Source: Ornithinimicrobium pratense
GTDB taxonomy: Bacteria; Actinomycetota; Actinomycetes; Actinomycetales; Dermatophilaceae
Reading direction: 5' to 3'
Assembly (NCBI RefSeq): GCF_008843165.1
Contig: NZ_CP044427.1
Location: forward strand, 3,348,001 to 3,412,000
Length of the DNA: 64,000 nucleotides
Both the position numbers and the translations under genes were made by a program. The notes under the pieces were generated by a model. The model saw nothing but the letters and a program-made list of their open reading frames with translations, was not told where the DNA came from and did no database searches. Positions 6,911 to 27,916 of the stretch are shown in pieces (position 1 is the stretch's first letter; every line of letters starts with the position of its first letter).

Positions 6911-8107
6911 ATGCTCGGTGAAGAGGTCTTCCTGCTCGACGCTGTCCGCACCCCGTTCGGCAAGCTGCGCGGCGGCCTGTCGCACGTGCGCACCGACGAC
7001 CTGGCCGCAGTGCCCCTGCGCTCGTTGCTGGAGCGTCACCCGGGGCTGGACCCGGCGCGGGTCGAAGACGTCTACTACGGCAACACCAACGGCGCAGGCG
7101 AGGAGAACCGCAACGTGGCCCGGATGGCGGCCCTGCTGGCCGGCCTGCCGGTGACCGTGCCGGGAGCGACGACCAACCGGCTGTGCGCCTCGGGCTCGGA
7201 GGCCCTGGTCCAGGCCGCCCGCTCGATCGCCGTGGGGGACGCGGACCTGGTGGTGGCCGGCGGGGTCGAGGGGATGAGCCGCGCTCCCTATGTGCTGCCC
7301 AAGCCCGACGAGGCGCTGCCCCGTGCCGTGGAGCTGCACCAGACGACGGTCGGCTGGCGGATGGTCAACCCCGCTTTCCCGGCGGAGTGGACCACCTCGC
7401 TGGGGGCCAGCGCGCAGGCCGTCGCCACCGAGCGGGGCATCGGACGCGAGGAGATGGATGAGTATGCCGTCCGCTCCCACCAGCGGGTGCACGCCGCCTA
7501 CGAGGCCGCTGCGCACAAGGGCTTCGTGGAGCCGCTGGAGGGGGTGGAGCGCGACGAGTCGCTGCGGCCGGCGGCCTCCATGGAGACCTTGGGCGCGCTG
7601 CGGCCGGCCTTCACCCGGGACGGCACGGTGACCGCCGGCAACTCCTCCCCGGTCAACGACGGCGCGATGGCGGCCCTGGTCGGCACGGCGGCGATGGCGC
7701 AGGAGCTGGGGCTGGAGCCGATCGCCCGGATCGTGGCCTCCCGCACGGTTGCGGTGTCCCCGGAGCAGTTCGCGGTCGCCCCGGTGCCGGCCATCCGGCA
7801 GCTGCTGGAGCGGACCGGCAAGGGCTTCGGCGACGTCGACCTGTGGGAGATCAACGAGGCTTTCGCCGCGATGGTGCTCTCCACGCTGCACGACCTGCCC
7901 GAGCTGGGCCGTGACGCCCTCGAGTCCCACGTCAACGTCAACGGCGGCGCGATCGCGATCGGTCACCCGCTGGGGGCGAGCGCCCCCCGCGTGGTCGTCG
8001 ACCTGGCTAGAGAGCTGCGCCGGCGCGGTGGCGGCATCGGCGTCGCAGCAGCCTGCATCGGCGTCGGCCAGGGCACGGCGCTGATGATCGAGGTCCCCCG
8101 CCCCTGA
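6911..8107 (+). CDS. Acetyl-CoA C-acyltransferase (thiolase, PaaJ/PcaF-like)
   Basis: A 398-residue thiolase. The nucleophile is C92 (TTNRLCASGSEAL), with H352 (NGGAIAIGHPLG) and C382 (AAACIGVGQG) completing the site. The start at ATG 6911 (MLGEEVFLLDAVRTPFG) matches family members; an upstream extension is not thiolase-like. Degradative thiolases split 3-oxoacyl-CoA with CoA. The YYGNTNGAGEENRNVARMAALLAG segment resembles 3-oxoadipyl-CoA thiolases. It sits at the edge of the aromatic-acid island and could supply its last step, but it is not in the same operon as the ring-attacking enzymes. Confidence 0.9.
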   Translation: MLGEEVFLLDAVRTPFGKLRGGLSHVRTDDLAAVPLRSLLERHPGLDPARVEDVYYGNTNGAGEENRNVARMAALLAGLPVTVPGATTNRLCASGSEALVQAARSIAVGDADLVVAGGVEGMSRAPYVLPKPDEALPRAVELHQTTVGWRMVNPAFPAEWTTSLGASAQAVATERGIGREEMDEYAVRSHQRVHAAYEAAAHKGFVEPLEGVERDESLRPAASMETLGALRPAFTRDGTVTAGNSSPVNDGAMAALVGTAAMAQELGLEPIARIVASRTVAVSPEQFAVAPVPAIRQLLERTGKGFGDVDLWEINEAFAAMVLSTLHDLPELGRDALESHVNVNGGAIAIGHPLGASAPRVVVDLARELRRRGGGIGVAAACIGVGQGTALMIEVPRP

Positions 8108-8297
8108 CCCTGCCCCCTCCCCGACAGAACACGGGAAAAGTCCCCAAAGAACGCGCGAAGTCCACCGATCACGGTTGGCTACGCGCCAGGGTCGAGCACG
8201 AAGATCGTGGTCGCGACCCGGGTCGGTCCACGCGCGCCCGACCAGCTGCCCTGATGGGCCCTTTCGCGTGCTCTGTGAGGCCTTGTGGCGTGTTCGG
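8108..8297. repeat. Degenerate inverted repeat between convergent genes
   Basis: The gap between the thiolase and mutase ends holds two arms of about 45 bases in opposite orientation. Each reads roughly GAACACG..AAAG..C..AGA.C.CGCGAA. A central imperfect hairpin (CACGA/TCGTG around 8199-8211) lies between them. It may terminate both genes and looks like a dispersed intergenic repeat. No ORF is credible here. Confidence 0.45.
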
Positions 8298-9833
8298 TCA
8301 GAACTCGGCGGAGGGGCGCCAGGTACCCAGCTCGTCGCGGAGGACCTCGACGACCTCGCCGAGGGTGGCGTAGGCCTTGACCGCCTCGATCGTGGCCGGC
8401 ATCACCGAGCGACCCTCGCGGACGTCCTGCGCCAGCTGGGCCAGCGCCGAGTCCACGGCCGTCTGGTCGCGGGTGTGCCGCAGGCGTCGCACCGACTCGG
8501 CCTGGGCCTGCTCGGTGCCGGGGTCGATGGTGAAGACCTCCAGCGGCTCGGTCGGCGCGGGGAACTTGTTCACCCCGACCACGGTCCGCTCCCCCGTCTC
8601 CACCTGCTGGGAGTGCCGGTAGGCCGCCTCCGCCAGGTCTCGCGCGAACCGGCCCGAGCCGATCGCCTCCAGCGCCCCGCCGCGCTCCTCGATGTCCTCC
8701 ATCAGCGACCAGATCGAGGCCTCGAGCTCGTCGGTGAGCGTCTCCACGGCATACGCGCCGGCGAGCGGATCGAGGGTGGTGGTGAGCCCGGTCTCGAAGG
8801 CGACCACCTGCTGGGTGCGCAGCGCGAGCGTCGCGGCGTGCTCGGTCGGCACCCCGAGCGCCTCGTCGTAGGCCGAGACGTGCAGGGTCTGCACGCCGGC
8901 CAGCGCCGCGACGGTGGCCTCCACGGAGGTACGGACGACGTTGTTGAGCGGCTGCTGCGCGGTGAGCGTCGAGCCCGCGGTGAAGGCGAAGATCCGCAGC
9001 TGCTCCGAGCGCGGGTCCCGCGCGCCATACCTCTCCCGCATCAGCCGAGCCCACACCCGGCGGGCGGCACGGAACTTGGCGACCTCGGGCAGCACATCGG
9101 TGGTGATCGCCAGGAAGGTGAACAGCGTCGGGGCCACCTGGTCGACGTCGACCCCGCGCCGCACGCACTCATCGAGGTAGGCGCGCGCATTGGCGAAGGT
9201 GAAGGCGATCTCCTGCGTGGCCGAGGCCCCGGACTCGCGGATGTGGTAGCCGCTCATCGCCAGCGGGACCCAGCTCGGCGCCTCCCGGCTGACGTACTCG
9301 ATGGTGTCGACGGACAACCGCAGCGAGGCCTCCGGCGGGAAGATCTGGGTGCCGCGGGCGATGAACTCCTTGAGCACGTCGTTCTGGATGAACATCCCGA
9401 ACTGGTCCGGGTGCACGCCCCGCTTCTCGGCCAGCGCGACGAAGAGCGCGGCCCACAGGTAGCCGATCGAGTTCGCGGTGGTGCGGACCTGGGACAGCTC
9501 CTCCAGGGGTATGCCGTCCATCAGCACCTCGATGTCGGCCAGTGAGTCGATCGCCACCCCGACCCGGCCGACCTCGCCCGCGGCGCGCGGGTCATCGGAG
9601 TCGATGCCCATCTGGCTGGGCAGGTCCATCGCCACCGAGAAACCGGTGACCCCCGCCTCGAGCAGGGCGCGGAAGCGGACGTTGGACTCCTTGGCGGTCC
9701 CGAAGCCGGCGTACTGGCCCATGATCCAGACCTTGGGCTCAGCGCTGACCCCGCGGGAGTAGGGGTACTGGCCCGGGCGCTCGGCACCCTCCGGCGCGTA
9801 GTCGACCCGCAGCTGCGGGTCCTCCCAGCTCAC
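8298..9833 (-). CDS. Acyl-CoA mutase large subunit (methylmalonyl-CoA mutase family, no B12 domain)
   Basis: A 511-residue TIM-barrel domain of the B12-dependent acyl-CoA mutases. The C-terminal cobalamin-binding (DxHxxG) domain is absent, so a separate small subunit is required; none lies in the window. Aligned to Propionibacterium MutB, substrate residues Y89 and R207 correspond to Y41 (QYAGF) and R160 (EFIARGT). Y243-H244 correspond to Y196-H197 ([10 protein letters not shown]). Isobutyryl- and hydroxyisobutyryl-CoA mutases replace the Y/R pair, so this protein keeps the carboxylate-recognising type. GTG start at 9833 overlaps the upstream ligase stop by four bases. It is the last gene of a four-gene operon with the aminobenzoyl-CoA monooxygenase. 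Substrate unknown. Confidence 0.9.
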
Positions 9834-11383
9834 GGCATACCCTCCTGCTCCTGCTCTTGTTCCAGGTCGGCGCGCAGCACCTTCTTGGCGATCTTGCCGG
9901 TGGAGTTGAGGGGGAACTCGCTCACCACCCGCACCTCCTTGGGCTTCTTGTAGGACGCCATCCGCGTGGCGCAGTGCTCGCGCACCCGCTCAGGATCGAC
10001 TTCCGCGCCGGCCCGCGCGGTAACGAGCGCGACGACTCGCTGCCCCCAGTCGGCGTCGGCGACCCCCACCACCGCGACCTCGCCGACCTCGGGCACCTCG
10101 GCGATGACCTCCTCGACCTCGCGCGGGTAGATGTTGTAGCCGCCGGAGATGATCATGTCGCCCTTACGGTCGATGAGCCACAGATGACCGTCCCCGGAGA
10201 GGCGGCCGAGGTCACCGGTGTGCAGCCACCCGTCGACGACCGCCTTGGACAGGTCGGTCCGCTGCTCGGCGTTGTAGTAGCCGGCCATGACGTGGTCGCC
10301 GCGGGTGATCACCTCACCGACCTCCCCGTCGGGGACGGGCCGGCCGTCCTCGTCCACGACCGCGAGCTCGACCCCGAGGGCCGGGCGCCCGGCGCTGGTG
10401 AGCAGCTCGGGCTGGTCGGCCAGGCCGCGGGCGTGGTCGGTGGCGTCGAGCACAGTCACCGGGGGGATCGCCTCGACGAGCCCGTAGTACTGCACCAGGT
10501 GCGGCGTGAGCCGCTCGTGCGCGCGGCGCATCTGCTCCGGCGGCATCGGGGCACCCGCGTAACCGAGCATCTTCAGCCCGGCCAGGTCCTCGCGGGTCGT
10601 GCCGTGGGAGAGCAGCCGCGCGACCATGGTGGGCACGAGCGCGGTGTGGGTCGCGCCCCGCTCCCCGACCGCCTCCAGGAAGGTCTGCGGGTCCCAGGTC
10701 GGCAGCACGATCTGCCGGGCACCGGCGACGAAGAAGGGCAGCACGAACAGGCCGGAGGTATGGGTGACCGGCCCGGCGTGCACGTAGCAGTCGTCCGGAC
10801 CGGGCGGGCCGTCGAGCACGTCGTGGGTCATGTTCACCACGGACGCGAACCAGTTGCGGTGCGTGCGCTGGGCGCCCTTGGGATGGCCGGTCGTGCCGGA
10901 GGAGTAGTGCAGGCCGCACAGGTCCCCCGGGTCGCGCACCGACAGCGGACCGGCGGTGGCCCCCGTCGCTAAGGCCTCCAGGTCGGTCTCGGGTCCCTCG
11001 CCGACGACCACGACGTGCGGCACCTGCTCACGGACCGGGGCGATGTCGTCGGCGAACCGCTCGTGGTAGATCAGGCCGCGGGCGGTGCAGTCGGTCGCGA
11101 TCCGCTGCCAGTCCGAGGGGTGCAGGCGGTAGTTGAGCGCCACCCGGACCAGCCCGGCCGCGCGGATCGCCAGGTCCGTCTCCAGGTATGCCGTGCTGTT
11201 GCTCTGCAGGTCCAGCACCCGATCACCAGGCTCCAGGCCGAGCGCCCTCAGGCCGCTCGCGATGCGGGTGACCCGGTCGGCCAGCTCGGCAAAGCTGCGG
11301 CGGTCGGCAGCGGTCGACCCCTCGACCGCCACGCGGTCGCCGAACCGGCGACCGGCGCGGGTGAGCATCGTGCCGACGTCCAT
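9830..11383 (-). CDS. AMP-forming acyl-CoA synthetase (class I adenylate-forming)
   Basis: A 517-residue ATP-dependent CoA ligase. The P-loop motif is YSSGTTGHPKGAQRTH, followed by the aromatic/substrate motif YYGLVEAIPPVT. Then come LHTGDLGRL and DRKGDMIISGGYNIYPREVEEV, and the C-terminal catalytic lysine lies in LNSTGKIAKK. The start is the ATG at 11383, four bases after the upstream stop; the longer open frame upstream is only a shadow of the upstream gene. Operon context with 13610-15988 suggests an aromatic or ring-derived acid as substrate, but sequence alone does not tell. Confidence 0.9.
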   Translation of the reverse strand: MDVGTMLTRAGRRFGDRVAVEGSTAADRRSFAELADRVTRIASGLRALGLEPGDRVLDLQSNSTAYLETDLAIRAAGLVRVALNYRLHPSDWQRIATDCTARGLIYHERFADDIAPVREQVPHVVVVGEGPETDLEALATGATAGPLSVRDPGDLCGLHYSSGTTGHPKGAQRTHRNWFASVVNMTHDVLDGPPGPDDCYVHAGPVTHTSGLFVLPFFVAGARQIVLPTWDPQTFLEAVGERGATHTALVPTMVARLLSHGTTREDLAGLKMLGYAGAPMPPEQMRRAHERLTPHLVQYYGLVEAIPPVTVLDATDHARGLADQPELLTSAGRPALGVELAVVDEDGRPVPDGEVGEVITRGDHVMAGYYNAEQRTDLSKAVVDGWLHTGDLGRLSGDGHLWLIDRKGDMIISGGYNIYPREVEEVIAEVPEVGEVAVVGVADADWGQRVVALVTARAGAEVDPERVREHCATRMASYKKPKEVRVVSEFPLNSTGKIAKKVLRADLEQEQEQEGMP

Positions 11384-11387
11384 GTCT

Positions 11388-13613
11388 TCAGTCCTCCTCG
11401 TCGGCCAGGGCCAGGGCGGCGTCGAGGATGCGCACCCCGTCGCCCTCGGCGAGCACGGTGATGGGGTTGAGATCCAGCTCGGCGCCCGCCGGGAGCGTCG
11501 CGGCCAGGTCGGCGAGCGCGGCGATGGTGTCCACCAGGGCCGCGCGGTCGGCCGGCGGTCGACCCCGGGCGCCAGCCAAGAGCAGGCGCAGGCGGGTCTC
11601 ATCCACCATCTCCTCGACATCCTGCCGGTCGATGGGCAGCAGCCGCAACGCGACGTCGGCGACGACCTCGGTGAGCACCCCGCCGACACCCACGGTGAGG
11701 ATCCGGCCGAGCGGGGTGTCGGCGCTGCCGACCAGGACCTCGACACCGGGTGGCACCATCTCCTCCACGAGCACCTGCCCGGCGCTCCCGTCCGGCCCCC
11801 GCAGGGCCCCGAGCCGGTCATAGACCTCGGCCGCGCGCTCCGACGTGACGTCGAGCACGACGCCGCCGGCCTCCGACTTGTGCAGCAGGCCGGGGACGAC
11901 GGCCTTGAAGACCGCCTGGCCACCAGCCTGCTCGACGGCCGCCAGGGCGTCGTCGCGGTCGCTGACGAGGCGGCCGACGGGTACCGGCAGTCCCGCGCCA
12001 GCCAGCGCCTGCTTGAGCGAGCTCTCGTCGGTGTGCGCCCAGAGGTCGGGTGGGGCGTGCCCGGCGGGCTGGTCCCGGTCGTTGCCCCCCGCGCGGGACC
12101 CTGCCTGCACGAACTGCGCCAGGGCCGCCACCGCCCGCACGGCGCGGGCCGGTGTGGGGTAGACCGGCAGACCGGCCGCACGCATCGTGGCCGCGGCGTC
12201 GGGGGCGAGGTGGTCGGCACCGGTGCGGGTCACCACGACGGGCACGCCGGTGCGCTCCCGGACCCGGGCCAGGGCTTGGACGACGGCGTCGACGTCGGAG
12301 CCGGTGAGCACGCAGAAGCAGGCCACGATCGCGTCCACGCCTGGGTCCTGGGCGATCGTGGTCAACGCCTGGTCGAACAGGTCCGGGTTGCTCATCACCG
12401 AGGCGGTGACGTCGACCGGGTTGGCCGTGGAGCCGTACGCCGGCACGATCTGGTCCAGGTCGGCGAGCGTGTCGTCGGCGAGCGCGGCCAGCTCCAGCCC
12501 TCGGGCCTCGATCGCGTCGGCCGCCAGGATCCCCGAGCCCCCCGAGGTGGTGACCACCGCGATCCGGCGCAGGCGGGCCCCACCGGGCTGCCGCAGCGGC
12601 GCACCCGGCGCACGCCCCGGCACACCGTCGGAACCCACCTGTCGGTCCTGCACCAGCGGCACCAGCACCATCACGTCCCCGACGTCGAGCAGCTCCTCGA
12701 CATCGTCCACGCGCACCACCCCGGCCCGGCGCAGCGCCGCGTCCACGACCTTGTCACCGGTCGCCAGCGCCCCGGTGTGCGACGCCGCGGCGCGCGCCCC
12801 GGCGTCGGAGCGGCCGGCCTTGAGCATCGCCACCGGCACCCCGGAGGCCGTCACCCGGGCGAGCGAGCTGAGGTCGCCCAGCGACTCGGCATACCCGAGC
12901 AGGCCGGTGCAGCGAGGTTGCTGCTCCTCGGCGAGCGCGGCCATCACCTCCGTGGCGCCGATGTCGGCCTCGTTGCCGGTGTTGACGACCCACCCCAGCC
13001 CCAACCCACGCTCGAAGGCGAGCGAGACCGCGCCATAGCCCAGAGCCCCGCTCTGGCTGACGAAGCCGATCCCGCCTGGGACCAACTGGGTCGAGGCACC
13101 GGAGAAGAGCGGGGAGAAGGAGCTCACCTGCCCGGTCGCGGTGCCGACGGTCCCGATGCAGTTGGGGCCCAATACCCGCACGCCGAGCTCGCCGGCGACC
13201 CGGACCAGCTCGTCCTGCAGGGCCGCGCCGGCCGGACCGGTCTCGGCGAAGCCGCTGGAGCAGACGATGACCACGCCGACGCCCGCGGCCGCACAGTCCT
13301 GCACCGCCGCGACCACCTTGTCGGCGGCCACCATTACCATCGCCACGTCCACCTCGCCTGCCCGGGCCGCCTCCTCGACCGAGGGATATGAGGTGAGCCC
13401 GGCAACCGGTGCCCCGTCCGGACGGACCGGGTAGATGCCGCCGGTGTAGCCGTAGCGCTGCAGGAACTGGACTGGCAGCCGACCGACGGCCCCGGCCCGG
13501 TCGCTGGCACCGACCACAGCGATGCCGCGGGCGACCCAGAGGGGGCGCAGGGCTGCAGGGCGCGCGTCCGGTCGGGCGGGAAGGGGGGAGGCGGACGCCT
13601 GCTCGGACGTCAT
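11388..13613 (-). CDS. ADP-forming acyl-CoA synthetase family protein (ACS/Acd, fused alpha-beta)
   Basis: A 741-residue fused acetyl-CoA synthetase (ADP-forming)-type protein. Residues 20-150 form a CoA-binding Rossmann domain (GIAVVGASDRAGAVG). A succinyl-CoA-synthetase-like flavodoxin region follows (GPNCIGT, GFVSQSGALG), with the likely phosphohistidine in AAASHTGALATGD. The C-terminal third is an ATP-grasp domain (QAVFKAVVPGLLHKSEAGGVVLDV). The ATG at 13613 overlaps the upstream stop by four bases and follows GGTGGAGG. Such enzymes convert acyl-CoA plus ADP and phosphate to acid plus ATP, or the reverse. Having both AMP- and ADP-type synthetases in one operon is notable. Confidence 0.88.
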   Translation of the reverse strand: MTSEQASASPLPARPDARPAALRPLWVARGIAVVGASDRAGAVGRLPVQFLQRYGYTGGIYPVRPDGAPVAGLTSYPSVEEAARAGEVDVAMVMVAADKVVAAVQDCAAAGVGVVIVCSSGFAETGPAGAALQDELVRVAGELGVRVLGPNCIGTVGTATGQVSSFSPLFSGASTQLVPGGIGFVSQSGALGYGAVSLAFERGLGLGWVVNTGNEADIGATEVMAALAEEQQPRCTGLLGYAESLGDLSSLARVTASGVPVAMLKAGRSDAGARAAASHTGALATGDKVVDAALRRAGVVRVDDVEELLDVGDVMVLVPLVQDRQVGSDGVPGRAPGAPLRQPGGARLRRIAVVTTSGGSGILAADAIEARGLELAALADDTLADLDQIVPAYGSTANPVDVTASVMSNPDLFDQALTTIAQDPGVDAIVACFCVLTGSDVDAVVQALARVRERTGVPVVVTRTGADHLAPDAAATMRAAGLPVYPTPARAVRAVAALAQFVQAGSRAGGNDRDQPAGHAPPDLWAHTDESSLKQALAGAGLPVPVGRLVSDRDDALAAVEQAGGQAVFKAVVPGLLHKSEAGGVVLDVTSERAAEVYDRLGALRGPDGSAGQVLVEEMVPPGVEVLVGSADTPLGRILTVGVGGVLTEVVADVALRLLPIDRQDVEEMVDETRLRLLLAGARGRPPADRAALVDTIAALADLAATLPAGAELDLNPITVLAEGDGVRILDAALALADEED

Positions 13614-15988: not shown

Positions 15989-16027
15989 CCGGGACTCCTT
16001 CGTCGTTGTCGGTACCAGCCTGGCCAG

Positions 16028-19931: not shown

Positions 19932-19981
19932 CAGGAGACCTCTCTTCTCGGCACCTTCGGCGACGGTGCCCGGTGCCTCCC

Positions 19982-20009
19982 AGTATGTTAGCTGTGTGAC
20001 GACAGTCAA
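19982..20009. promoter_or_regulatory. Overlapping divergent promoters of ligase and paaX-like gene
   Basis: Minus strand: -35 TTGACT (20004-20009), 16-base spacer, -10 CATACT (19982-19987). Plus strand: a -10 TATGTT (19984-19989) six bases before the GTG at 19996, which implies a leaderless message. The near-palindrome TGACGACAGTCA (19997-20008) overlaps both, a good position for autorepression by the regulator. Confidence 0.65.
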
Positions 20010-20862
20010 GGGCACGACATCACAAGCGGGTGACACCGGTCGCCCCGGGACCGCGGTCGACGCGGGCCTGCGCGCGCTCATCGTGACCATCTACGGCCTC
20101 TACGCCCGCGAGGTCGGGGGCTGGCTGAGCGTCAGTACCCTCATCCGGCTGATGACCCGCCTGGACGTGGACGAGCCGGCGGTACGCTCCTCGATCTCCC
20201 GGCTCAAGCGCCGCGGCATCCTGGAGCCGGAGCGGATCGACGGCCGGGCGGGCTACGCCCTGTCCGCCCAGGCCCGCGAGATCCTTGACGCCGGTGACCG
20301 GCGCATCTTCCGCCGCCGCAGGGGGACCGTCGACGAGGGCTGGGTGCTGGCCGTCTTCAGCGTTCCGGAGTCCGAGCGCCGCCGGCGGCATACCCTGCGC
20401 TCGCGGCTGTCCTGGCTGGGCTTCGGCTCGGTCGGCCCCGGCGTCTGGGTGGCGCCGGCCCACCTCTACGACGAGGCGCGCGAGATGTTGCTGCGCGAGG
20501 ACCTGGCTGAGTATGTCGACCTGTTCCAGGCCACCTACCTCGGCTTCTCCGCCGCGGCCGAGGAGGTGGCCCGCTGGTGGGACCTGGAGGGCCTGGGCGA
20601 GCTCTACGAGCAGTTCTACGCCGAGCACGCCCCGGTGCTGGCGAGCTGGCGGGCCCGGCGAGGCAAGGACGACGCGGGTATGGCGTTCGCCGACTACGTG
20701 CGCGTGCTCACCGCCTGGCGGCGCCTGCCCTACCTCGACCCGGGCCTGGCCCCCGAGCTGCTCCCTCGGGACTGGGCCGGGACGCGGTCGGCCGACCTGT
20801 TCTTCGCGCTGCAGCGCCGGCTCGAGGGCCCCTCGCACCGGTTCGTGGACGAGGTCAGCTGA
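19996..20862 (+). CDS. PaaX-family transcriptional regulator
   Basis: A 288-residue PaaX-type repressor. Residues 15-95 form the winged HTH (IVTIYGLYAREVGGWLSVSTLIRLMTRLDVDEPAVRSSISRLKRRGIL). Then come the central YJR-like region (DEGWVLAVFSVPESERRRRHTLRSRLSWLGFGSVGPGVWVAP) and the PaaX C-terminal domain with YRxLPYLDPGLPPELLP-like text (WRRLPYLDPGLAPELLPRDW). The GTG at 19996 is chosen because a -10 box lies six bases upstream and the family starts here; a longer frame upstream is not conserved-looking. PaaX represses phenylacetate genes and is relieved by the aryl-CoA. By analogy this protein may sense aminobenzoyl-CoA. Confidence 0.88.
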   Translation: MTTVKGTTSQAGDTGRPGTAVDAGLRALIVTIYGLYAREVGGWLSVSTLIRLMTRLDVDEPAVRSSISRLKRRGILEPERIDGRAGYALSAQAREILDAGDRRIFRRRRGTVDEGWVLAVFSVPESERRRRHTLRSRLSWLGFGSVGPGVWVAPAHLYDEAREMLLREDLAEYVDLFQATYLGFSAAAEEVARWWDLEGLGELYEQFYAEHAPVLASWRARRGKDDAGMAFADYVRVLTAWRRLPYLDPGLAPELLPRDWAGTRSADLFFALQRRLEGPSHRFVDEVS

Positions 20863-20877
20863 GGCGTCCCACCTCGA

Positions 20878-20985
20878 CCGGCGACACGGCCCGCGCGCAA
20901 CCGGCGACACGGCCCGCGCGCAACCGGCGACACACCCCGCAGACCGTGTCGCCGGTGAGGAACAGACCGTGTCGCCGGTGGTCAG
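20878..20985. repeat. 23-bp iterated repeats and hairpin between convergent genes
   Basis: Two exact 23-bp units (20878-20900 and 20901-20923, core CCGGCGACACGG) and a partial third are followed by two units in inverse orientation from 20945 (core CGTGTCGCCGGT). Facing copies form an 11-bp stem, ACCGGCGACAC with GTGTCGCCGGT, that could terminate both genes. A related 23-bp array is at 46981-47071. Confidence 0.75.
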
Positions 20986-21749
20986 ATGCCGAGCAGCTCC
21001 TCGGCGCGGGTGCGGTTGCGGCGGAACTCGTCGACGGACACGTCCCAGTGCACCGCGCCCTTCTGCATGACGACCACGTGGTCGGCGACGGACAGGGCCA
21101 AGCGCAGGTTCTGCTCCACGACGAGCACGGTCATCCCGGCGGCGCAGACCTCGCGGACGACCTCACCGACCTGCTGGACGATCGCCGGCGCCAGCCCGTC
21201 GGAGGGTTCGTCGAGCAGCAGGATCGTGGGGTTGGTCAGCAGCGCCCTGGCGATCGCCAGCATCTGCTGCTCGCCGCCGGAGAGCTGGTCGCCGCGGTTG
21301 CGCATCCGCTCGCCCAGCCGGGGCAGCAGGTCGATCACGCGCTCCCGGGTCCAGGCGCCCTGCCGACCGGACCGGTCGGAGATGTCGAGGTGCTCGGCGA
21401 CGGTCAGCGGCCCGTAGACGCGTCGTCCCTGCGGCACCAGACCGACGCCCAGCTTGGCGATCCGGTCCGGCCGCGCGCCGGCCACCTCCTGCCCGGCGAC
21501 GGTCACCGAGCCGGCCATCGGGCGGACCAGCCCCATGATCGTGTTGATCAGGGTCGACTTACCCACGCCGTTGCGGCCCAGCAGGGCCAGCACCCCACCC
21601 TCGGGGATGGCGATGTCGACCCCGTGCAGGACCCGGGACCCGTCGTAGCCGGAGACCAGCCCGCGGGTGGCGAGGATGGGCGTGCTGGGTGGGGCGGGCG
21701 GCATACCGGTCCCTTCTGCGGGGTCTGGCGTGGACGCGGCGGAGCTCAT
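20982..21749 (-). CDS. Branched-chain amino acid-type ABC transporter ATPase (LivF-like)
   Basis: A 255-residue ABC ATPase of the LivF group. Walker A is GRNGVGKST, the signature is LSGGEQQMLAIARAL, Walker B is ILLLDEPSDGLAP, and the H-loop follows in VLVVEQNL. ATG at 21749 overlaps the LivG-like stop by four bases. It is the last gene of the import operon. By context the system imports an aromatic acid (anthranilate or similar), as related HAAT systems do in aromatic clusters; the substrate is inferred. Confidence 0.9.
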   Translation of the reverse strand: MSSAASTPDPAEGTGMPPAPPSTPILATRGLVSGYDGSRVLHGVDIAIPEGGVLALLGRNGVGKSTLINTIMGLVRPMAGSVTVAGQEVAGARPDRIAKLGVGLVPQGRRVYGPLTVAEHLDISDRSGRQGAWTRERVIDLLPRLGERMRNRGDQLSGGEQQMLAIARALLTNPTILLLDEPSDGLAPAIVQQVGEVVREVCAAGMTVLVVEQNLRLALSVADHVVVMQKGAVHWDVSVDEFRRNRTRAEELLGI

Positions 21750-22576
21750 CCCGGCCCGTCCTCGAGGAACAGCTCCGAGGTGTCCTCGGCGCCCAGGTAG
21801 GCGTGCTGCACGGCGTCGCTGGCCCGCACCTCGTCCGGGTCCCCCGTGAGCAGGTGCTCGCCGAGGTGCAGGACGGTGACGCGGTCGGCCACCCCGAAGA
21901 CGAGGTCGAGATCGTGCTCGACGAGCAGGACCGTGACCTCGGCCGGCAGCCCCAGCACCAGCTCCTGGAAGGCCATCGTGTCGGCCGGGGACATCCCGGC
22001 AGCCGGCTCGTCCAGCAGGAGCACCGAGGGCCGGGTCGCCAGCGCGACGGCGACCTCCAGCTGGCGTCGCTCACCGTGGGACAGCGAGCCCGCGGTCGCG
22101 CCGGAACGGTCCTGGAGCATGAGCTGTTCCAGGACCTCGTCCGCCTCGGCAAGCAGGGCCCGGCGCCGGGTCACCGCCCGCCAGGGCTGCCCCTGCACGC
22201 CGTGGCGGCGCTGCACGGCGATGAGGATGTTCTCCCGGGCGGTGGCGGAGAGGAAGAGGGAGGAGTGCTGGAAGGTACGGACCAGCCCGCGGCGGGCCCG
22301 GGCGTGCTCGGACAGTTTCGTCACGTCGTCGCCGTGCAGCATCACCGTCCCCGCCGTCGCCGGGAGTGCCCCGGCGACCAGCGCGAAGAGGGTGGACTTG
22401 CCCGCCCCGTTGGGCCCGATGACGGCGTGCCGGGCGCCGGGGGCGACGTCGAAGCTGACGTCCTTGACCGCCGACAGGCTGCCGAAGTCCTTGCCCAGGC
22501 CGTGCAGGCGCAGCGCGGGTGCGCCCGAAGAGCCCTGGGTATGGGGCGTGTCGCGGGTGTCCGGTCGGCTCGTCAT
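21746..22576 (-). CDS. Branched-chain amino acid-type ABC transporter ATPase (LivG-like)
   Basis: A 276-residue ABC ATPase of the LivG group. Walker A GPNGAGKST, signature LSHGERRQLEVAVALA, Walker B VLLLDEPAAGMSP, H-loop VLLVEHDLDLVFGVADR. LivG-specific FSLPxxARRGLVRTFQ-like text (ARARRGLVRTFQHSSLF) is present. An N-terminal stretch of about 20 residues is extra. Four-base overlaps with both neighbours show tight coupling. Confidence 0.9.
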   Translation of the reverse strand: MTSRPDTRDTPHTQGSSGAPALRLHGLGKDFGSLSAVKDVSFDVAPGARHAVIGPNGAGKSTLFALVAGALPATAGTVMLHGDDVTKLSEHARARRGLVRTFQHSSLFLSATARENILIAVQRRHGVQGQPWRAVTRRRALLAEADEVLEQLMLQDRSGATAGSLSHGERRQLEVAVALATRPSVLLLDEPAAGMSPADTMAFQELVLGLPAEVTVLLVEHDLDLVFGVADRVTVLHLGEHLLTGDPDEVRASDAVQHAYLGAEDTSELFLEDGPG

Positions 22577-23646
22577 ACCTCCACCTCCCCCGCGGCGCTC
22601 TTACGCAGTCGCCGCAGCAGCCCGCCCCACTGTCTCGGGCCGCCCGCCAAGCCCTTGGGCAGCAGGTAGACGGCGAGGACGAAGAGGATGCCGAGCAGCA
22701 GGGGCCCGTGCCCGGAGGCCATCTGACCCAGGTAGTCGCGGGTGAAGATGACCACCATCGCGCCCAGGCAGGCGCCCCACATCGACCCGACGCCGCCGAC
22801 GATGACCGCCAGCAGGGCCAGCGCCGCGACCTGGAAGCCCATGTCGCCGGGCGCGACGAAGCGCTGGGAGGAGGTCCACAGGGAGCCGGCGAGCGCGGCG
22901 AGGCCACCGGCGATGACGTAGGCGGCGAGTGCGTAGCTGCCGGTGCGGTAACCGACGGCCCGCAGCCGCGACTCGTTGTCGCGCAGCCCGCGCAGGGTCA
23001 GGCCCAGGGGCGAGCGCAGCAGGATGGCCACCAGGACGTAGGCGAGGATCGCGACCGCGAGCACGTAGTAGTAGATGTAGCCCTGGTTGCGCAGGCCCTC
23101 CATCCCGGGCGCGACCACCACCGGCGGGATGCCGGACAGCCCGTCGGTGCCGCGGGTGATGCCGTGCAGCTGGCCGGCGGCGCTGTAGGCGATCTCGCCG
23201 ATGGCCAGGGTGATCATCAGGAAGGCGACGCCGCGGGCCCGGATGGCGACCGGTCCGGTGAGCAGCGCGGCGATGACCCCGGCGCCCACCGCGACGAGGA
23301 TCTGCACGATGCCCAGCTCGGAGAAGTGGATCGCGGTGAGCGCGCCGGCGTAGGCGCCAACCCCGAAGTAGGCGGCCTGGCCCAGCGTGGGCAGGCCGGT
23401 GATCCCGGTGAGCAGGTTCACGCTCATGGCCAGCACGGCGAAGATCAGGATCTTGGTGAAGGTCATCACCGCATACGTGCCCAGCACCCACGGGATGGCG
23501 AGCAGCGCGACCAGGACGGCACCGACGACGACGCTGGTCCGCAGGTCGGGGCGGAACGGGCGCCGCGGGTCGGCCTGCGGACGGGCCCCCTGTCGGGCCC
23601 CTCGGGTGGCCTGCCGGGCCTGCGGCGCTGGCTGCGTGGTGCTCAT
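22573..23646 (-). CDS. Branched-chain amino acid-type ABC transporter permease (LivM-like)
   Basis: A 357-residue membrane protein of the LivM family with about 9-10 hydrophobic helices. GITGLPTLGQAAYFGVGAYAGAL is the conserved cytoplasmic loop, and VIVGGVGSMWGACLGAMVV the second conserved loop. The first 35 residues are polar and Arg/Gln-rich, longer than usual. Start at ATG 23646 overlaps the LivH-like stop. Confidence 0.9.
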   Translation of the reverse strand: MSTTQPAPQARQATRGARQGARPQADPRRPFRPDLRTSVVVGAVLVALLAIPWVLGTYAVMTFTKILIFAVLAMSVNLLTGITGLPTLGQAAYFGVGAYAGALTAIHFSELGIVQILVAVGAGVIAALLTGPVAIRARGVAFLMITLAIGEIAYSAAGQLHGITRGTDGLSGIPPVVVAPGMEGLRNQGYIYYYVLAVAILAYVLVAILLRSPLGLTLRGLRDNESRLRAVGYRTGSYALAAYVIAGGLAALAGSLWTSSQRFVAPGDMGFQVAALALLAVIVGGVGSMWGACLGAMVVIFTRDYLGQMASGHGPLLLGILFVLAVYLLPKGLAGGPRQWGGLLRRLRKSAAGEVEV

Positions 23647-24521
23647 GCGGTCTTCCCCGTCGCGAACAACCCTTGCGGCCGCACGGCCAGGACGAAGAGC
23701 ATCGCTCCGAAGAGCAGGAACGGAGCGTAGGTGGGCAGCAGGGCCACGCCCAGCGTCTGGACCTGGCCGATGAGCAGCGCCCCCAGCAGCGCGCCGCGCA
23801 CCGAGCCCAGCCCGCCGATGACCACGACGACCAGGGACAGCACCAGCACCCGTTGGTCAACGTGCGGCCCGGGCGCCAGGATCGGGGCACCCAGGACGCC
23901 GCCGAGGGTGGCCAGCGCGGCCCCGAAGGCGAAGACGCCGAAGAGGATCTTGCGGGTGTCGACCCCCATGGCCCGCACCATGTCGCGGTCGGCGACGGTG
24001 GCCCGGACCAGGGCCCCGACCGAGGACCGCTCGAAGGCCAGGTAGACCAGCGCCGCGAGCACGCCGGCCACTCCGATGAAGACCAGCCGGTAGAGGGGGT
24101 AGGTGTAGCCCAGGACGGTGATGGAGCCGGCCAGTGCGGCGGGCGGGGCGGCGGAGAGCGTCTCGGCGGAGAAGACCATGAGGAAGATCTCCGCGACGAT
24201 GAACGAGATGCCCAGCGTCAGCGCCGCCTGGTCCAGGTGCCCGCGCCCTTGCAGCGGCGCCACGGCCGCGGCGAGCAACCCACCGCCCAGGACGCCCACG
24301 AGCAGGCCCACCACGATGGCGATGAGCAGGCCCAGCCAGCTGCCGTCGGAGAGCGCGTAGGCCGTGTAGGCCCCGGCCAGGTAGAGCGTGCCGTGCGCGA
24401 GGTTCAGCACGTCCATCATCCCGAAGACCAGGGACAGACCGACCGCCAGGGTGAACAGGAGCAGCCCGAAGGCGACCCCGTCGATCATGCTGACGAGGTT
24501 CTGGTCGAGCCAGGTGATCAC
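23643..24521 (-). CDS. Branched-chain amino acid-type ABC transporter permease (LivH-like)
   Basis: A 292-residue LivH-family permease with eight or so membrane helices. MMDVLNLAHGTLYLAGAYTAYAL is the conserved GxxNxAHG loop, and VVIGGLGSVRGALLGALLIG the second. GTG start at 24521 lacks an obvious ribosome site. It lies 42 bp after the binding-protein gene on the same strand. Confidence 0.9.
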   Translation of the reverse strand: MITWLDQNLVSMIDGVAFGLLLFTLAVGLSLVFGMMDVLNLAHGTLYLAGAYTAYALSDGSWLGLLIAIVVGLLVGVLGGGLLAAAVAPLQGRGHLDQAALTLGISFIVAEIFLMVFSAETLSAAPPAALAGSITVLGYTYPLYRLVFIGVAGVLAALVYLAFERSSVGALVRATVADRDMVRAMGVDTRKILFGVFAFGAALATLGGVLGAPILAPGPHVDQRVLVLSLVVVVIGGLGSVRGALLGALLIGQVQTLGVALLPTYAPFLLFGAMLFVLAVRPQGLFATGKTA

Positions 24522-24563
24522 GGTGCGGGCGGCAGGCGGTGCGCTGTGGACCGGGCAGGAACC

Positions 24564-25742
24564 TTAGCCACCCAGCTCACCCAGCTCTTCGACCACGACG
24601 TTGGTCAGCTCGCCGTCGACCTCCTGGACCTCGCGCAGGTACCACATCTGGATCGGGGTGCCGTTGTCGTTGAACCGCCAGGTGCCGCGCGGCGACTCGA
24701 TCTCACCCAGTCCACCGATGGCCTCGTTGATCGCCTGGGAGTCGGGCCCGCCCGCCTCGGCGATGGCGAGGTCCAACACCTTCGCGGCGTCGTAGGAGGC
24801 CATCGCGTAGGTCGTGGGTTTGCGGTCGGTCTTCTCCTCGTAGTCGGCAACGAACTGGGCGTTGAGCTCGTTCTCCAGGTCGTAGTTGTAGTTCATCGAG
24901 GTGAAGGTGCCCAGTGCGGAGTCGCCTTGCCCGTCGAGCACGCCGCCCTCGGTGAGGAAGCCGGCGGAGTAGTGGGTGATCTCGTCCTTGAGGCCAAACT
25001 GCTCATACTGCTTGACGAACTCGACCGCGGCACCACCGGCGTAGAAGGTGAACATCGCCTCGGCGCCTGAGGAGCGGGCGTTGGCCAGGAACGGCTGGAA
25101 GTTGGTCGTGGCCGGGAACGGGGTGTAGACCTCACCCGCGATCTCGCCGGCGGCGGGCTCGAAGGTGCTCTTGAAGCCGGTGACCTCGTCGATGCCGGCC
25201 TGGTAGTCGGCGGCGAGGAAGTAGACGCTGCCCTCGGTGTTCTCCGCCACATAGGCGCCCAGTGCCTCACCCGGCTCGTCGTTGACGTAGGACGTGCGCC
25301 AGATGTACTCGACGTCGGTGAGGGTGGTCGGGGAGGCGTTGGAGCCGACCAGCGGGATCTCCCCGCCCTCGAAGAGGTCGACGATGCCGTTCATCACCGC
25401 GGAGTTCACCACGCCGGTCACCACGTGGACCTGGTCCTGCTGGACGAGGCGGTCGGCCGCCGCGCGCCCACTGTCTGCGGTCTCCCCCTCGTCGGCCAGG
25501 ATCACCTCGACCTCCTGGCCACCGAGCTGGTTGTCGTGCTGGTCGAGGTAGACCTCGAAGCCGGCCCGCATGTCGTCGCCCAGGCTGGTGTAGACGCCCG
25601 ACTGCGGCACGAGCAGGCCGATCTTGACCGGGCCCTCGTCGTCGTCCCCGCCGCCGCCCAGGGTGCCACCTCCGCAGGCACCGAGCGTGAGCGAGCCGGC
25701 CGCCACCAGAGCGAGCAGGTATGTCTTCGGTCGTGCGGTCAT
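24564..25742 (-). CDS. ABC transporter substrate-binding lipoprotein (Leu/Ile/Val-binding type)
   Basis: A 392-residue periplasmic-binding-protein type I lipoprotein. The signal peptide (KTYLLALVAAGSLTLGAC) ends in a lipobox with Cys23, followed by a Gly/Asp linker. VKIGLLVPQSGVYTSLGDDMRAGFEVYLD is the family start. The ATG at 25742 follows GAGGAAGGG. It is first in the importer operon, and its leader has an operator-like palindrome (25815-25837). Related proteins in aromatic clusters bind benzoate-like acids; the ligand here is inferred from neighbours. Confidence 0.9.
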   Translation of the reverse strand: MTARPKTYLLALVAAGSLTLGACGGGTLGGGGDDDEGPVKIGLLVPQSGVYTSLGDDMRAGFEVYLDQHDNQLGGQEVEVILADEGETADSGRAAADRLVQQDQVHVVTGVVNSAVMNGIVDLFEGGEIPLVGSNASPTTLTDVEYIWRTSYVNDEPGEALGAYVAENTEGSVYFLAADYQAGIDEVTGFKSTFEPAAGEIAGEVYTPFPATTNFQPFLANARSSGAEAMFTFYAGGAAVEFVKQYEQFGLKDEITHYSAGFLTEGGVLDGQGDSALGTFTSMNYNYDLENELNAQFVADYEEKTDRKPTTYAMASYDAAKVLDLAIAEAGGPDSQAINEAIGGLGEIESPRGTWRFNDNGTPIQMWYLREVQEVDGELTNVVVEELGELGG

Positions 25743-25766
25743 CGCTGGAAACCCTTCCTCGGGTGC

Positions 25767-25786
25767 ACCCGGCTCCGTCGCCGGGT
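25767..25786 (-). promoter_or_regulatory. Leader hairpin before the binding-protein gene
   Basis: Seven-bp perfect stem ACCCGGC/GCCGGGT with a six-base loop in the 5' leader, 25 bases before the start codon. It could affect translation or mRNA stability; a chance GC hairpin is also possible. Confidence 0.35.
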
Positions 25787-25814
25787 CGGGCTGATGGCTT
25801 GCACCATATGTCGC

Positions 25815-25837
25815 TTCTGTATCGCTCGTCTACAGAA
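25815..25837. promoter_or_regulatory. Operator-like palindrome upstream of the importer operon
   Basis: Perfect 7-bp inverted repeat TTCTGTA/TACAGAA with a 9-base spacer, in the AT-rich gap between the RidA-like and binding-protein genes. It differs from the TGACGAC sites in the rest of the island, so a second regulator is suggested. Confidence 0.5.
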
Positions 25838-25863
25838 CGCAATAAAAAAGTGATCTGGGAGGG

Positions 25864-26277
25864 TCAGTCGGCCAGGCCTTCCCGAGGCTCTACGACGGCC
25901 ATCCCCTGCACCTCGACCAGCGCCTCGAGGTCCCAGAGCCGCGCGACGCCGATCCCGGCGGTGGCCGGGTAGTGCGCTCCCATGAGCTTCCTCCAGACCT
26001 TTCCGATCTCGCGGCCGTGGGCCTTGTAGTCGTCCACGTCGACGATGTAGATCGTCAGGGTGGCCAGGTCGGTCGGCTCACCCCCTGCCGCGTGCAGGGA
26101 GACGAGCAGGTTGGACAGCGCCCGCTCGAACTGCTCGACGACCGTGTCGCCGACGATGACCCCCTCGGGACTGAGGGCGGTCTGCCCGGCCAGGAAGACC
26201 GTCCTGCCGGTGCCGACGACCGCATGGCTGAAGCCCTTGGGCTGGCCCAGCTCGGGCGGGTTGACGAGTTCGATCAT
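25864..26277 (-). CDS. RidA/YjgF-family protein (candidate enamine/imine deaminase)
   Basis: A 137-residue single RidA domain with VFLAGQTAL, ERALSNLLVSLHAAGGEPTDLATLTIYI and VEVQGMAVV blocks. The start at ATG 26277 overlaps the SDR stop by four bases. In E. coli RidA the catalytic Arg105 lies in FPARSCVEVARL. The aligned text here is YPATAGIGVARL, with T106 in that place, so archetypal imine deamination may be altered. An enamine is precisely what the aminobenzoyl-CoA route produces, so deamination of 2-amino-5-oxocyclohexene-carbonyl-CoA is an attractive but unproven role. Confidence 0.85.
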   Translation of the reverse strand: MIELVNPPELGQPKGFSHAVVGTGRTVFLAGQTALSPEGVIVGDTVVEQFERALSNLLVSLHAAGGEPTDLATLTIYIVDVDDYKAHGREIGKVWRKLMGAHYPATAGIGVARLWDLEALVEVQGMAVVEPREGLAD

Positions 26278-27041
26278 GACTGGAGCCCTCCTCCGTCGAC
26301 GTTGATCCCCTGGCCGGTCATGCCGCTGTTGCGCACGCAGGTCAGCACCGCCTCGACGACCTCCTCGACGGTGATGAGCCGGTGGAGGGGGGACTTGGCC
26401 TCCAGCGCGGCGAGCGCCTGCTCGGGGGTGCGCCCGGTCTTGTCCACGATGCCCTGCACGGTCTGGGCGGTCATCGGCGTGTCCACGTAGCCGGGGCACA
26501 CGGCGTTGACGGTGACGCCCGTCCGGGCGAGCTCGGCGGCGGCGGAGCGCACCAGCCCGAGGACCCCGTGCTTGCTGGCGGTGTAGGCCGAGATGTAGGG
26601 CTCGCCGAGCTTGGCCGCCACGGAGGCGACGACGACGATCCGGCCGTGCTCGGCCTGCTTCATCGCGGGGATGGTGCGGCGCAGCAGCCGGAACGGGGCG
26701 GTGAGGTTGAGGTCGAGCATCTGCTGCCACTGCTCGTCGGTGGTCCGGTCCACCGAGGCGGAGACCCCTGCTCCGGCGTTGGCGACGACCACCTGCGGTG
26801 CAGCCCACTCCTGCTCGACCCGGTCGACCACCTCCTCGATCGCTCCTGGTGCCGTCAGGTCCGTCGGGAGCACGAGGGTGGGGCCGGCGCACCGGGCCGC
26901 GGTCTCCTCCAGCTGGTCGCGGCTGCGGGAGGTGAGGGCCACGGCATACCCCTCGTTGCTGAGGGCGGCGGCGACCCCCGCACCGATCCCGCGACCCGCC
27001 CCGGTGACCAGGGCGACGGGCTGCTCCAGACGTCTCGACAC
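26274..27041 (-). CDS. SDR-family oxidoreductase (3-oxoacyl/3-hydroxyacyl-CoA type)
   Basis: A 255-residue classical SDR. Cofactor motif TGAGRGIG, NAGAG, catalytic S in VASVAAKLG, Y and K in YTASKHGVLG, and PGYVDTPMT. SRSRDQLEE after strand 2 favours NADP(H) over NAD. GTG start at 27041 behind AAGG. First gene of a two-gene unit with the RidA-like gene and divergent from the hydrolase gene at 27119, sharing its operator region. Probably reduces or oxidises an alicyclic CoA intermediate. Confidence 0.87.
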   Translation of the reverse strand: MSRRLEQPVALVTGAGRGIGAGVAAALSNEGYAVALTSRSRDQLEETAARCAGPTLVLPTDLTAPGAIEEVVDRVEQEWAAPQVVVANAGAGVSASVDRTTDEQWQQMLDLNLTAPFRLLRRTIPAMKQAEHGRIVVVASVAAKLGEPYISAYTASKHGVLGLVRSAAAELARTGVTVNAVCPGYVDTPMTAQTVQGIVDKTGRTPEQALAALEAKSPLHRLITVEEVVEAVLTCVRNSGMTGQGINVDGGGLQS

Positions 27042-27062
27042 GCTGTGACCTTGCCACTATCC

Positions 27063-27090
27063 GTGACGACCGTCAAGATGGCGACATACT
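27063..27090 (+). promoter_or_regulatory. Promoter with perfect 12-bp palindrome TGACGACCGTCA
   Basis: -35 GTGACG (27063-27068), 16-base spacer, -10 CATACT (27085-27090), reading toward the BadI-like gene. The -35 overlaps TGACGACCGTCA (27064-27075), a perfect 5-2-5 palindrome. Same arrangement as at 16028-16055 and 19982-20009. It lies in the divergent gap with the SDR gene. Confidence 0.7.
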
Positions 27091-27118
27091 GAAAACGCGC
27101 CGCGACGAGGGAGCACAC

Positions 27119-27916
27119 ATGATCAGGCCCGAGGACTTCACCGACGTCACCTACGAGGTGGAGGAGAGCTGGGCGGTGGTCACCATCAACCGTCCGGAGC
27201 GCTACAACTCCTTCCGGGGCCGCACCGTCGATGAGCTGATCGCCGCCCTGAAGCACGCCTGGGCCGACTCGCGGGTGGCCTGCGTGATCCTCACCGGTGC
27301 GGGCGAGAAGGCCTTCTGCGCCGGCGGAGACGTCAAGGAACGGGCCGAGACCGGCAGCTACGGCGAGACCGAGTGGGGGTTGTTCCAGATCCAGCAGCTG
27401 CACCAGGTCATCCGCGACATCCCCAAGCCGGTCATCGCGGCCGTCAACGGCGTCGCGGTCGGCGGTGGCCACGTGCTGCACGTGCTGTGCGACCTGTCGG
27501 TGGCCAGCAGCACCGCCCGGTTCGGGCAGAGCGGGCCGCGGGTGGGCTCCTTCGACGCGGGCTTCGGCTCGGCCTACCTCGCGCGGGTGGTCGGCGAGAA
27601 GCGGGCTCGGCAGATCTGGTTCCTGCTCGATCTCTACGACGCCGAGACCGCCGAGCGCTGGGGCCTGGTCAACGACGTGGTCCCGCCGGAGCAGCTGATG
27701 GACAAGGCGCGCGAGTATGCCGCCAAGATCTCTTCTTACTCCCCCACCGCCCTGCGCTTCCTCAAGCACAGCTTCAACGCCGACTCCGACCACATGCAGG
27801 GCCTGGGAAATATCGCCTTCGCCGGCCTGGACCTGTTCGTGCAGACCGAGGAAGCCAAGGAGGGCGCCAACGCCTTCAGCGAGAAGCGGACGCCGGACTT
27901 CAGCCCCTGGCGCTGA
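27119..27916 (+). CDS. Enoyl-CoA hydratase/isomerase family, BadI/MenB-like ring hydrolase candidate
   Basis: A 265-residue crotonase-fold protein. The oxyanion-hole segments are CAGGDVKER and GVAVGGGHVLHVLCDLSVAS. The text GSFDAGFGSAYLARVVGEKRARQIWFL, with FDAG, is the hallmark of MenB and of BadI (2-oxocyclohexanecarboxyl-CoA hydrolase) rather than ordinary hydratases. BadI opens a 2-oxocyclohexane-carboxyl-CoA ring by hydrolysis. Deamination of the monooxygenase product would give exactly a 2-oxo ring CoA ester. ATG at 27119 follows GAGGGAG. Ring-opening is inferred; a plain hydratase role is the alternative. No other menaquinone gene is nearby, which argues against MenB. Confidence 0.85.
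   Translation: MIRPEDFTDVTYEVEESWAVVTINRPERYNSFRGRTVDELIAALKHAWADSRVACVILTGAGEKAFCAGGDVKERAETGSYGETEWGLFQIQQLHQVIRDIPKPVIAAVNGVAVGGGHVLHVLCDLSVASSTARFGQSGPRVGSFDAGFGSAYLARVVGEKRARQIWFLLDLYDAETAERWGLVNDVVPPEQLMDKAREYAAKISSYSPTALRFLKHSFNADSDHMQGLGNIAFAGLDLFVQTEEAKEGANAFSEKRTPDFSPWR

Follow-up and report, generated by a model that had tools for sequence, protein, structure and literature searches.

The window analyzed in this study is a 64,000-nucleotide stretch of the Ornithinimicrobium pratense genome (NZ_CP044427.1, positions 3,348,001 to 3,412,000), and it carries between positions 6911 and 27916 an aroyl-coenzyme A (CoA) island of the anthranilate type, organized around a two-domain aminobenzoyl-CoA monooxygenase/reductase (ACMR). 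The host genome (3.54 Mb) is a single contig, and the guanine-cytosine (GC) content of the window is 68 to 75% per 2-kb block. Unless marked otherwise, functions were named from Pfam and NCBIfam profile searches. The ACMR gene (13610..15988, minus strand; PF01494 FAD monooxygenase plus PF00724 old-yellow-enzyme reductase) is single-copy in the host genome, and its product passes NCBIfam family NF006101 with 1234 bits against a cutoff of 1078. It forms one operon, all in the same direction, with the genes of an NDP-forming acyl-CoA synthetase (11388..13613; CoA_binding_2, Succ_CoA_lig, Ligase_CoA_2, and ATP-grasp_5), an AMP-forming acyl-CoA ligase referred to here as ligase 2 (9830..11383; AMP-binding, ATG start), and the large subunit of a coenzyme-B12 acyl-CoA mutase (8298..9833; TIGR00641). 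The ACMR and synthetase genes overlap, with ATGA at their junction, as do those of ligase 2 and the mutase, and a few bases separate the synthetase from ligase 2. A PcaF-like thiolase (6911..8107, plus strand; Thiolase_N/C) and a BadI/MenB-like hydrolase (27119..27916, plus strand) mark the two ends of the island. Two plus-strand open reading frames (ORFs; 12187-13038 and 13141-13434) were discarded as antisense of the synthetase gene, their codon-position GC being reversed.

The remaining genes lie between ACMR and the hydrolase. A short-chain dehydrogenase/reductase (SDR1; 16074..16841, plus strand; adh_short, ATG at 16074) is divergent from ACMR and is followed by a DSBA-like protein (16862..17701, plus strand; DSBA) that is partly conserved, with homologues in loci L112, L117, and L124. 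Next come a 4HBT-type thioesterase (17729..18136, minus strand; 4HBT_2), whose gene overlaps that of the aroyl-CoA ligase (18133..19830, minus strand; benz_CoA_lig at 341.9 bits, slightly under the cutoff of 375.25), and a PaaX-family repressor (19870..20862, plus strand) that matches PaaX, PaaX_M, and PaaX_C from residue 68 onward, so that its true start is probably further inside the annotated ORF. A Liv-type ABC importer (LivF, LivG, LivM, and LivH; 20982..24521, minus strand; ABC_tran and BPD_transp_2) and its substrate-binding protein (24564..25742, minus strand; Peripla_BP_6) precede a RidA-family protein (25864..26277, minus strand; Ribonuc_L-PSP at 67.3 bits against a cutoff of 27.3, no NCBIfam hit at E ≤ 1e-20), whose gene overlaps that of a second dehydrogenase/reductase (SDR2; 26274..27041, minus strand; adh_short). 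All the genes listed in the initial annotation (ACMR, ligase, thioesterase, PaaX, Liv importer, RidA, SDRs, BadI/MenB-like hydrolase, and thiolase) are thus encoded where it placed them; the mutase, ligase 2, the synthetase, and the DSBA-like protein had been overlooked in the same span. In line with its statement that gentisate dioxygenase is missing, neither a cupin nor a gentisate-dioxygenase domain was detected among the island ORFs (Pfam, E ≤ 0.001; the rest of the genome was not searched). No acyl-CoA dehydrogenase was present among the island ORFs scanned with Pfam, and no cobalamin riboswitch or other Rfam element was found in the window at the gathering threshold.

The assignment to an anthranilate-type pathway was supported by comparison with the Arthrobacter plasmid pAL1: the aroyl-CoA ligase is 53.5% identical over 97% to the pAL1 ligase, and ACMR is 63.4% identical to the pAL1 enzyme. 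The matched ligase gene, located just before ACMR on pAL1, is taken to be ARUE_113p00220, whose expression yielded anthranilate-CoA ligase activity (PMC3534580). What lies beside ACMR was then compared in 64 named ACMR loci obtained from a scan of genome contigs, with neighbors scored by tblastn at E ≤ 1e-12; the named loci closest in ACMR to the window are actinobacterial. Three lower modules were defined: module A, acyl-CoA dehydrogenase plus enoyl-CoA hydratase; module B, cupin plus fumarylacetoacetate hydrolase plus thioesterase, a set first noticed in L022; and module C, that of the window, BadI/MenB-like hydrolase plus mutase plus PcaF-like thiolase plus two CoA ligases. Under fixed thresholds, 47 loci were of type A, 4 of type B, and 1 of type C, with 12 unclassified and none mixed. 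Five of the unclassified loci are on contigs shorter than 12 kb; others, e.g., the myxobacterial ones, have full flanks. The myxobacterial ACMR genes of L038, L040, and L071 (Sorangium and Polyangium) have no ligase, RidA, or lower-module match within a 10-kb flank. The characteristic enoyl-CoA hydratase was detected in 47 of the 64 loci and the acyl-CoA dehydrogenase in 41, and homologues of RidA (47 loci), the aroyl-CoA ligase (44), and SDR2 (40) were frequent, SDR2 being common to type A clusters and type C. Homologues of the mutase, close BadI-like hydrolase, thiolase, and NDP-forming synthetase were detected in L020, from Crossiella sp. SN42, and in no other of the 64 loci. The type A enoyl-CoA hydratase had no match in the host genome at E ≤ 1e-60. 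An ACMR match at E ≤ 1e-100 was present in 17 of 198 genomes sampled evenly across the order, and larger stretches from 14 of the 17 gave 2 type A loci, 11 type B loci, and one 4-kb contig without a module. In the type B clusters (L022:5430-12397, L205, which is pAL1, and L179 to L189), RidA is accompanied by a fumarylacetoacetate hydrolase, an acyl-CoA thioesterase, and a small cupin, which in L022 has 162 amino acids and lacks an NCBIfam hit at E ≤ 1e-20; these clusters may represent a third ring-opening route for anthranilate, perhaps uncharacterized as well.

RidA accompanies all three modules (39/47 type A, 4/4 type B, and 1/1 type C named loci; 11/11 type B and 2/2 type A loci of the order sample), suggesting that the deamination step is a common property of the pathway. 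The eight type A loci without a RidA hit are mostly cut contigs; L073 lacks RidA despite 10-kb flanks on both sides. The RidA-dependent deamination suggested by the initial annotation therefore fits, but not as the new part of the route, and RidA was rejected as a distinguishing feature of the window locus because types A and B carry it too.

The island mutase belongs to a clade with 100/100 support and a long branch in a tree of 29 rows (13 clade members and 16 others), and this clade tracks ACMR. Among 31 genomes of the genus, 10 have ACMR at ≥80% identity (six more match via the reductase domain only); the clade mutase (≥87%) occurs in 9/10 of these and in 0/21 of the rest. Next comes a second copy in genome G584 at 73%, after which no match exceeds 49%. 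Similarly, a close BadI-like gene (≥65%) is present in 8 of the 10 ACMR genomes and 0 of the 21 others, the other BadI-like matches listed reaching at most 51% and being presumably MenB. Fisher tests gave 5e-7 for mutase-ACMR and 6e-6 for BadI-like-ACMR, figures that serve for scale only because the genomes are related. The ACMR-mutase island was recovered in 8 further genomes of the genus, with the gene order kept as far as the contigs extend. The tenth ACMR genome, G592, has neither the clade mutase nor the close BadI-like gene and carries acyl-CoA dehydrogenase and enoyl-CoA hydratase genes after ACMR; a match to this hydratase was absent at E ≤ 1e-60 from 11/11 type C genomes searched. Thus, a single genus combines one upper pathway with either of two lower modules.

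Altogether, type C spans four lineages and 12 genomes: nine from the genus, G016 from another family of the order, Crossiella, where the set lies within one 16-kb stretch, and a Nanopelagicales metagenome-assembled genome (MAG). SDR1 beside ACMR is a marker of type C. It was seen on short contigs without the mutase in G016 (L190, 69%) and in the MAG (L032, 58%; this contig also has a 40% fumarylacetoacetate hydrolase-like match), and the prediction held, as the clade mutase was then found in both (76% and 67%, respectively). In the MAG, an ~8-kb stretch carries the BadI-like (69%) and thiolase (62%) genes on one strand and SDR2, RidA, the NDP-forming synthetase, ligase 2, and the mutase on the other. 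In a quick ACMR tree with SH-aLRT support only, placing the 12 type C rows takes four label changes, three of them forced by well-supported branches. Type C is scattered in this tree while its mutases make up one clade, which suggests that the module has passed from one ACMR lineage to another. Among 72,556 plasmid records, 416 matched the mutase, the best at 50.2%, with no clade member. The recurrence in 8 genomes of the genus and the same gene set in three more lineages argue against a chance association, and it is very likely that the mutase, the ligases, the BadI-like enzyme, and the thiolase constitute the lower module of the anthranilate pathway.

The mutase itself passes TIGR00641 (551.4 bits; cutoff, 303.8) and has no B12 domain of its own. 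Its predicted fold matches 4r3u with a TM-score of 0.83; the model (mean pLDDT of 73.4, 11 sequences) was used for the fold only. The residues aligned with Tyr89 and Arg207 of methylmalonyl-CoA mutase (MCM) are kept in 13/13 clade members; the Tyr89 position in the alignment was confirmed by the Y89F structure 5req, and the Arg207 numbering is the one we assume. Motifs constant in the 16 other rows are replaced in all 13 members by T-A-N, G-[ML]-[FL]-IQND, RIF[AV]F, and H-V-[SC], which points to a changed substrate and probably to a new enzyme subfamily. A candidate small subunit for the clade mutase is a 150-amino-acid B12-binding protein encoded elsewhere in the host genome (2362355-2362804; E of 7.6e-43 to HcmB). 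Of 11 type C genomes searched, 10 gave a match at ≥67%, the exception being G016 (450 contigs), and the type A genome G592 gave none; in six of the rows the match contains a single stop, which is probably where the protein ordinarily ends, and in the MAG the gene is on the mutase contig, 4.8 kb beyond the mutase. The host genome also encodes a fused IcmF-like mutase and a split housekeeping-type large chain (1262796-1264376 and 2346728-2348272), this second large chain being 46% identical to the island mutase.

A second thiolase-ligase 2-mutase set, without ACMR and with a lower third-position GC, is present in G584 (contig C54; L125:10492-20000 and L176) next to PaaX-like, CoA-transferase III, Tct transporter, acyl-CoA dehydrogenase-like, and thiolase-like genes. 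As ligase 2 stays with the mutase and thiolase in this copy, the three enzymes seem to act together from a free acid, possibly another gamma-keto acid. This suggests that the ligase-mutase-thiolase cassette could be a general device for gamma-keto acid breakdown.

The hydrolase scores below the BadI family (TIGR03210; 287.8 bits, cutoff of 467.6) and below MenB (NF005637/TIGR01929; 324.4/308.2 bits, cutoffs of 380/342.7). It keeps the catalytic Asp of MenB (GSFD); the C-terminal Tyr, to which we assume a role in MenB, is replaced by Val or Thr in 8/8 close members and by Ala in a 65% paralogue. A second MenB-like gene (49%), presumably the true MenB, is located at 435128-435988 of the host genome. 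On these three grounds (scores, second gene, and replaced Tyr), a MenB identity was rejected. Close relatives of the hydrolase were seen only in type C genomes, which fits the hydrolytic step of the initial annotation. The window also has an FMN reductase gene adjoining a luciferase-like monooxygenase gene (36080-37934, minus strand), a pair that recurs in L170 and L171 (75% and 89%) at ~10 kb or less from the BadI-like gene. The thiolase is closest to PcaF among NCBIfam families (433.8 to 437.5 bits, below the cutoffs of 597/605; TIGR02430 cutoff, 597), and in L020 and L198 the thiolase and BadI-like genes are same-strand neighbors. Aligned by motif and by eye, the window thiolase has a Phe at the position of Phe325 of human 2-methylacetoacetyl-CoA thiolase T2, taking the T2 residue letters as we assume them. 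This Phe325 is described as lining the 2-methyl pocket (PMC6790690).

We propose that type C, as encoded by the island, is a third and rare lower pathway of aerobic CoA-dependent anthranilate degradation, and we give the exact chemistry outlined here a probability of about 55%. While module membership is well supported, we infer the chemistry after ACMR. The two first steps are those known from the protein families: anthranilate would be converted to its CoA ester by the aroyl-CoA ligase and then by ACMR to 2-amino-5-oxocyclohex-1-enecarbonyl-CoA. RidA, proposed as an enamine/imine hydrolase on the ACMR product, would aid its conversion to 2,5-dioxocyclohexanecarbonyl-CoA. In Arthrobacter grown on anthranilate, a CoA ester with the formula C7H8O4 was reported that may be cyclohexanedione-carboxyl-CoA (PMC3534580), and this supports deamination ahead of ring opening. 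The BadI/MenB-like enzyme, acting as a 2,5-dioxocyclohexanecarbonyl-CoA hydrolase, would cleave C1-C2 with water to give 4-oxopimeloyl-CoA. That RidA and BadI would complete the route, as the initial annotation has it, was not supported: the 4-keto group of this product suits ordinary beta-oxidation poorly. The B12 mutase, with its small subunit encoded elsewhere, would shift the thioester carbonyl to the neighboring carbon (a 1,2-shift, the reaction of the B12 mutase family) to form 2-methyl-3-oxoadipyl-CoA. This beta-keto ester could be cleaved by the PcaF-like thiolase, as a 2-methyl-3-oxoadipyl-CoA thiolase, to yield succinyl-CoA plus propionyl-CoA. Reactivation of 4-oxopimelate freed by hydrolysis would fall to the two extra ligases (ligase 2 possibly as a 4-oxopimelate or gamma-keto acid ligase). 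This chemistry was chosen because it uses the type C genes, requires no acyl-CoA dehydrogenase, and is balanced in carbon (7 = 3 + 4). We see an even chance that the mutase is a coenzyme-B12 4-oxopimeloyl-CoA mutase, converting a gamma-keto acyl-CoA to an alpha-methyl-beta-keto acyl-CoA suited to thiolysis; this would be a new reaction class for B12 carbon-skeleton mutases and the key step of the pathway.

A hydroxy variant is the most serious competitor, although we consider it unlikely. One SDR would reduce the 5-oxo group before ring opening, the hydrolase would then release 4-hydroxypimeloyl-CoA, the mutase would convert this to 3-hydroxy-2-methyladipyl-CoA, and the other SDR would oxidize the latter to 2-methyl-3-oxoadipyl-CoA, with the same thiolysis. 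The two SDRs are kept, SDR1 marking type C and SDR2 being shared with type A, and among solved structures that of the hydroxyacyl-CoA mutase HcmA is the nearest to the mutase. Against it, the mutase has Tyr, Ala, and Arg where HcmA has Ile90, Asp117, and Gln208 (numbers as we assume them), Ile and Gln being at the Tyr89 and Arg207 positions of MCM, and a radical beside a keto group would be more stable on chemical grounds. That the natural substrate is salicylate or another aroyl-CoA is improbable: NF006101 is named bifunctional salicylyl-CoA 5-hydroxylase/oxidoreductase and the aroyl-CoA ligase is just 53.5% identical to the characterized one, but RidA, of an enamine/imine deaminase family and present with all three modules, would have no role for salicylate. 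We find still less room for a plain route in which RidA and BadI open the ring, beta-oxidation is encoded elsewhere, and the rest of the module (mutase, ligases, and thiolase) serves another acid and is only carried along. The ACMR-less G584 island does show that a set of thiolase, ligase 2, and mutase need not be linked to ACMR, but no ACMR-less genome among the 31 of the genus carries the clade mutase, ACMR genomes of three further lineages do, and the 4-oxo acyl chain stands against it as above. Finally, an ordinary MCM processing pathway-derived propionyl-CoA, which the conserved Tyr89 and Arg207 positions would allow, was rejected as highly improbable given the host's two other mutases, the clade-wide motif changes, and 476 bits against 876 for the MCM equivalog NF006944 (the host housekeeping large chain, at 661.5 bits, is also under).

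Nevertheless, several observations weigh against the 4-oxopimeloyl-CoA route. Type C is rare (1/64 named loci and 1/396 phylum genomes, the only clade mutase match at E ≤ 1e-180 in the phylum sample being in the host genome). ACMR and the mutase are on separate contigs in G016 and in the MAG, where mis-binning is possible. No close thiolase was found in the G583 stretches L117, L118, L169, and L170, from a single-contig assembly, nor a close BadI-like hit in G605 and G016, both fragmented assemblies. In G607, SDR2 has no close BadI-like neighbor, and the best copy of that gene (65%) is at another site, near an acyl-CoA dehydrogenase. The mutase model falls below a pLDDT of 50 in parts, including residues 17 to 41, which limits any reading of substrate fit, and the small subunit is expected to serve the housekeeping mutase as well. 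The Phe of the thiolase loop is shared with 7vtr, and the residue after it is Ala rather than the Pro of T2. Two extra ligases exceed the need of a route retaining CoA, and both conserved SDRs have no role in it, fitting the hydroxy variant equally. The G607 copy (L168:7009-13626, contig C11) adjoins acyl-CoA dehydrogenase and enoyl-CoA hydratase-like genes, perhaps an alicyclic acid pathway. Farther along the window, a 1,781-amino-acid subtilase with carboxypeptidase-regulatory, Kelch, and three cell-wall-binding 2 domains is encoded at 29846-35191 (minus strand).

The kind of pathway is known, and what appears new is its lower module with a probable new enzyme subfamily. ACMR of Azoarcus evansii makes 2-amino-5-oxocyclohex-1-enecarbonyl-CoA, whose further breakdown is assigned in review passages to "enzymes of beta-oxidation" (PMC4539516); the island offers a complete, carbon-balanced gene set for one answer. 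If the proposed route is true, the anthranilate CoA pathway has an exchangeable lower module, vitamin B12 is tied to aerobic aromatic degradation through a carbon-conserving route, and a new substrate type joins the short list of B12 carbon-skeleton mutases. By 2010, the substrate groups described for these mutases were H, CH3, OH, and COOH, a keto substituent not being among those listed (PMC2847961). In titles and abstract openings of the papers listed from an open-licence library, no mutase acting on 4-oxopimeloyl-CoA or another gamma-keto acyl-CoA appeared, and no mutase was linked to anthranilate degradation. A gamma-keto acid ligase-mutase-thiolase cassette would be of interest for degrading or building levulinate-type chemicals.

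Compared with known systems, the island shares the CoA ligase and ACMR with the 2-aminobenzoyl-CoA pathway of Azoarcus evansii, whose own cluster we take to be of type A, and RidA and SDR2 with type A loci; unlike that pathway with its beta-oxidation enzymes, it has no type A dehydrogenase/hydratase but a hydrolase, a mutase, a thiolase, and two ligases. Type B pAL1 of Arthrobacter resembles it in ligase, ACMR, RidA, and PaaX, whereas a cupin, a fumarylacetoacetate hydrolase, and a thioesterase replace the type C module. With BadI and MenB, the window hydrolase shares the crotonase family, the catalytic Asp of MenB, and a proposed C1-C2 hydrolysis of a 2-oxo ring CoA ester, but it scores under both cutoffs and lacks the MenB C-terminal Tyr; the BadI route of cyclohexanecarboxylate and benzoate is described as leading to pimelyl-CoA and then beta-oxidation (PMC9795900). 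The mutase has the large-subunit fold of the B12 acyl-CoA mutases (MCM, HcmA, and IcmA/IcmF) and, as in Hcm, a separate putative small subunit, yet it forms its own clade with changed pocket motifs. Lastly, T2 of isoleucine degradation parallels the proposed thiolysis of a 2-methyl-3-oxoacyl-CoA to propionyl-CoA, with a Phe at the 2-methyl pocket; unlike T2, the window thiolase is closest to PcaF, and its other product would be succinyl-CoA.

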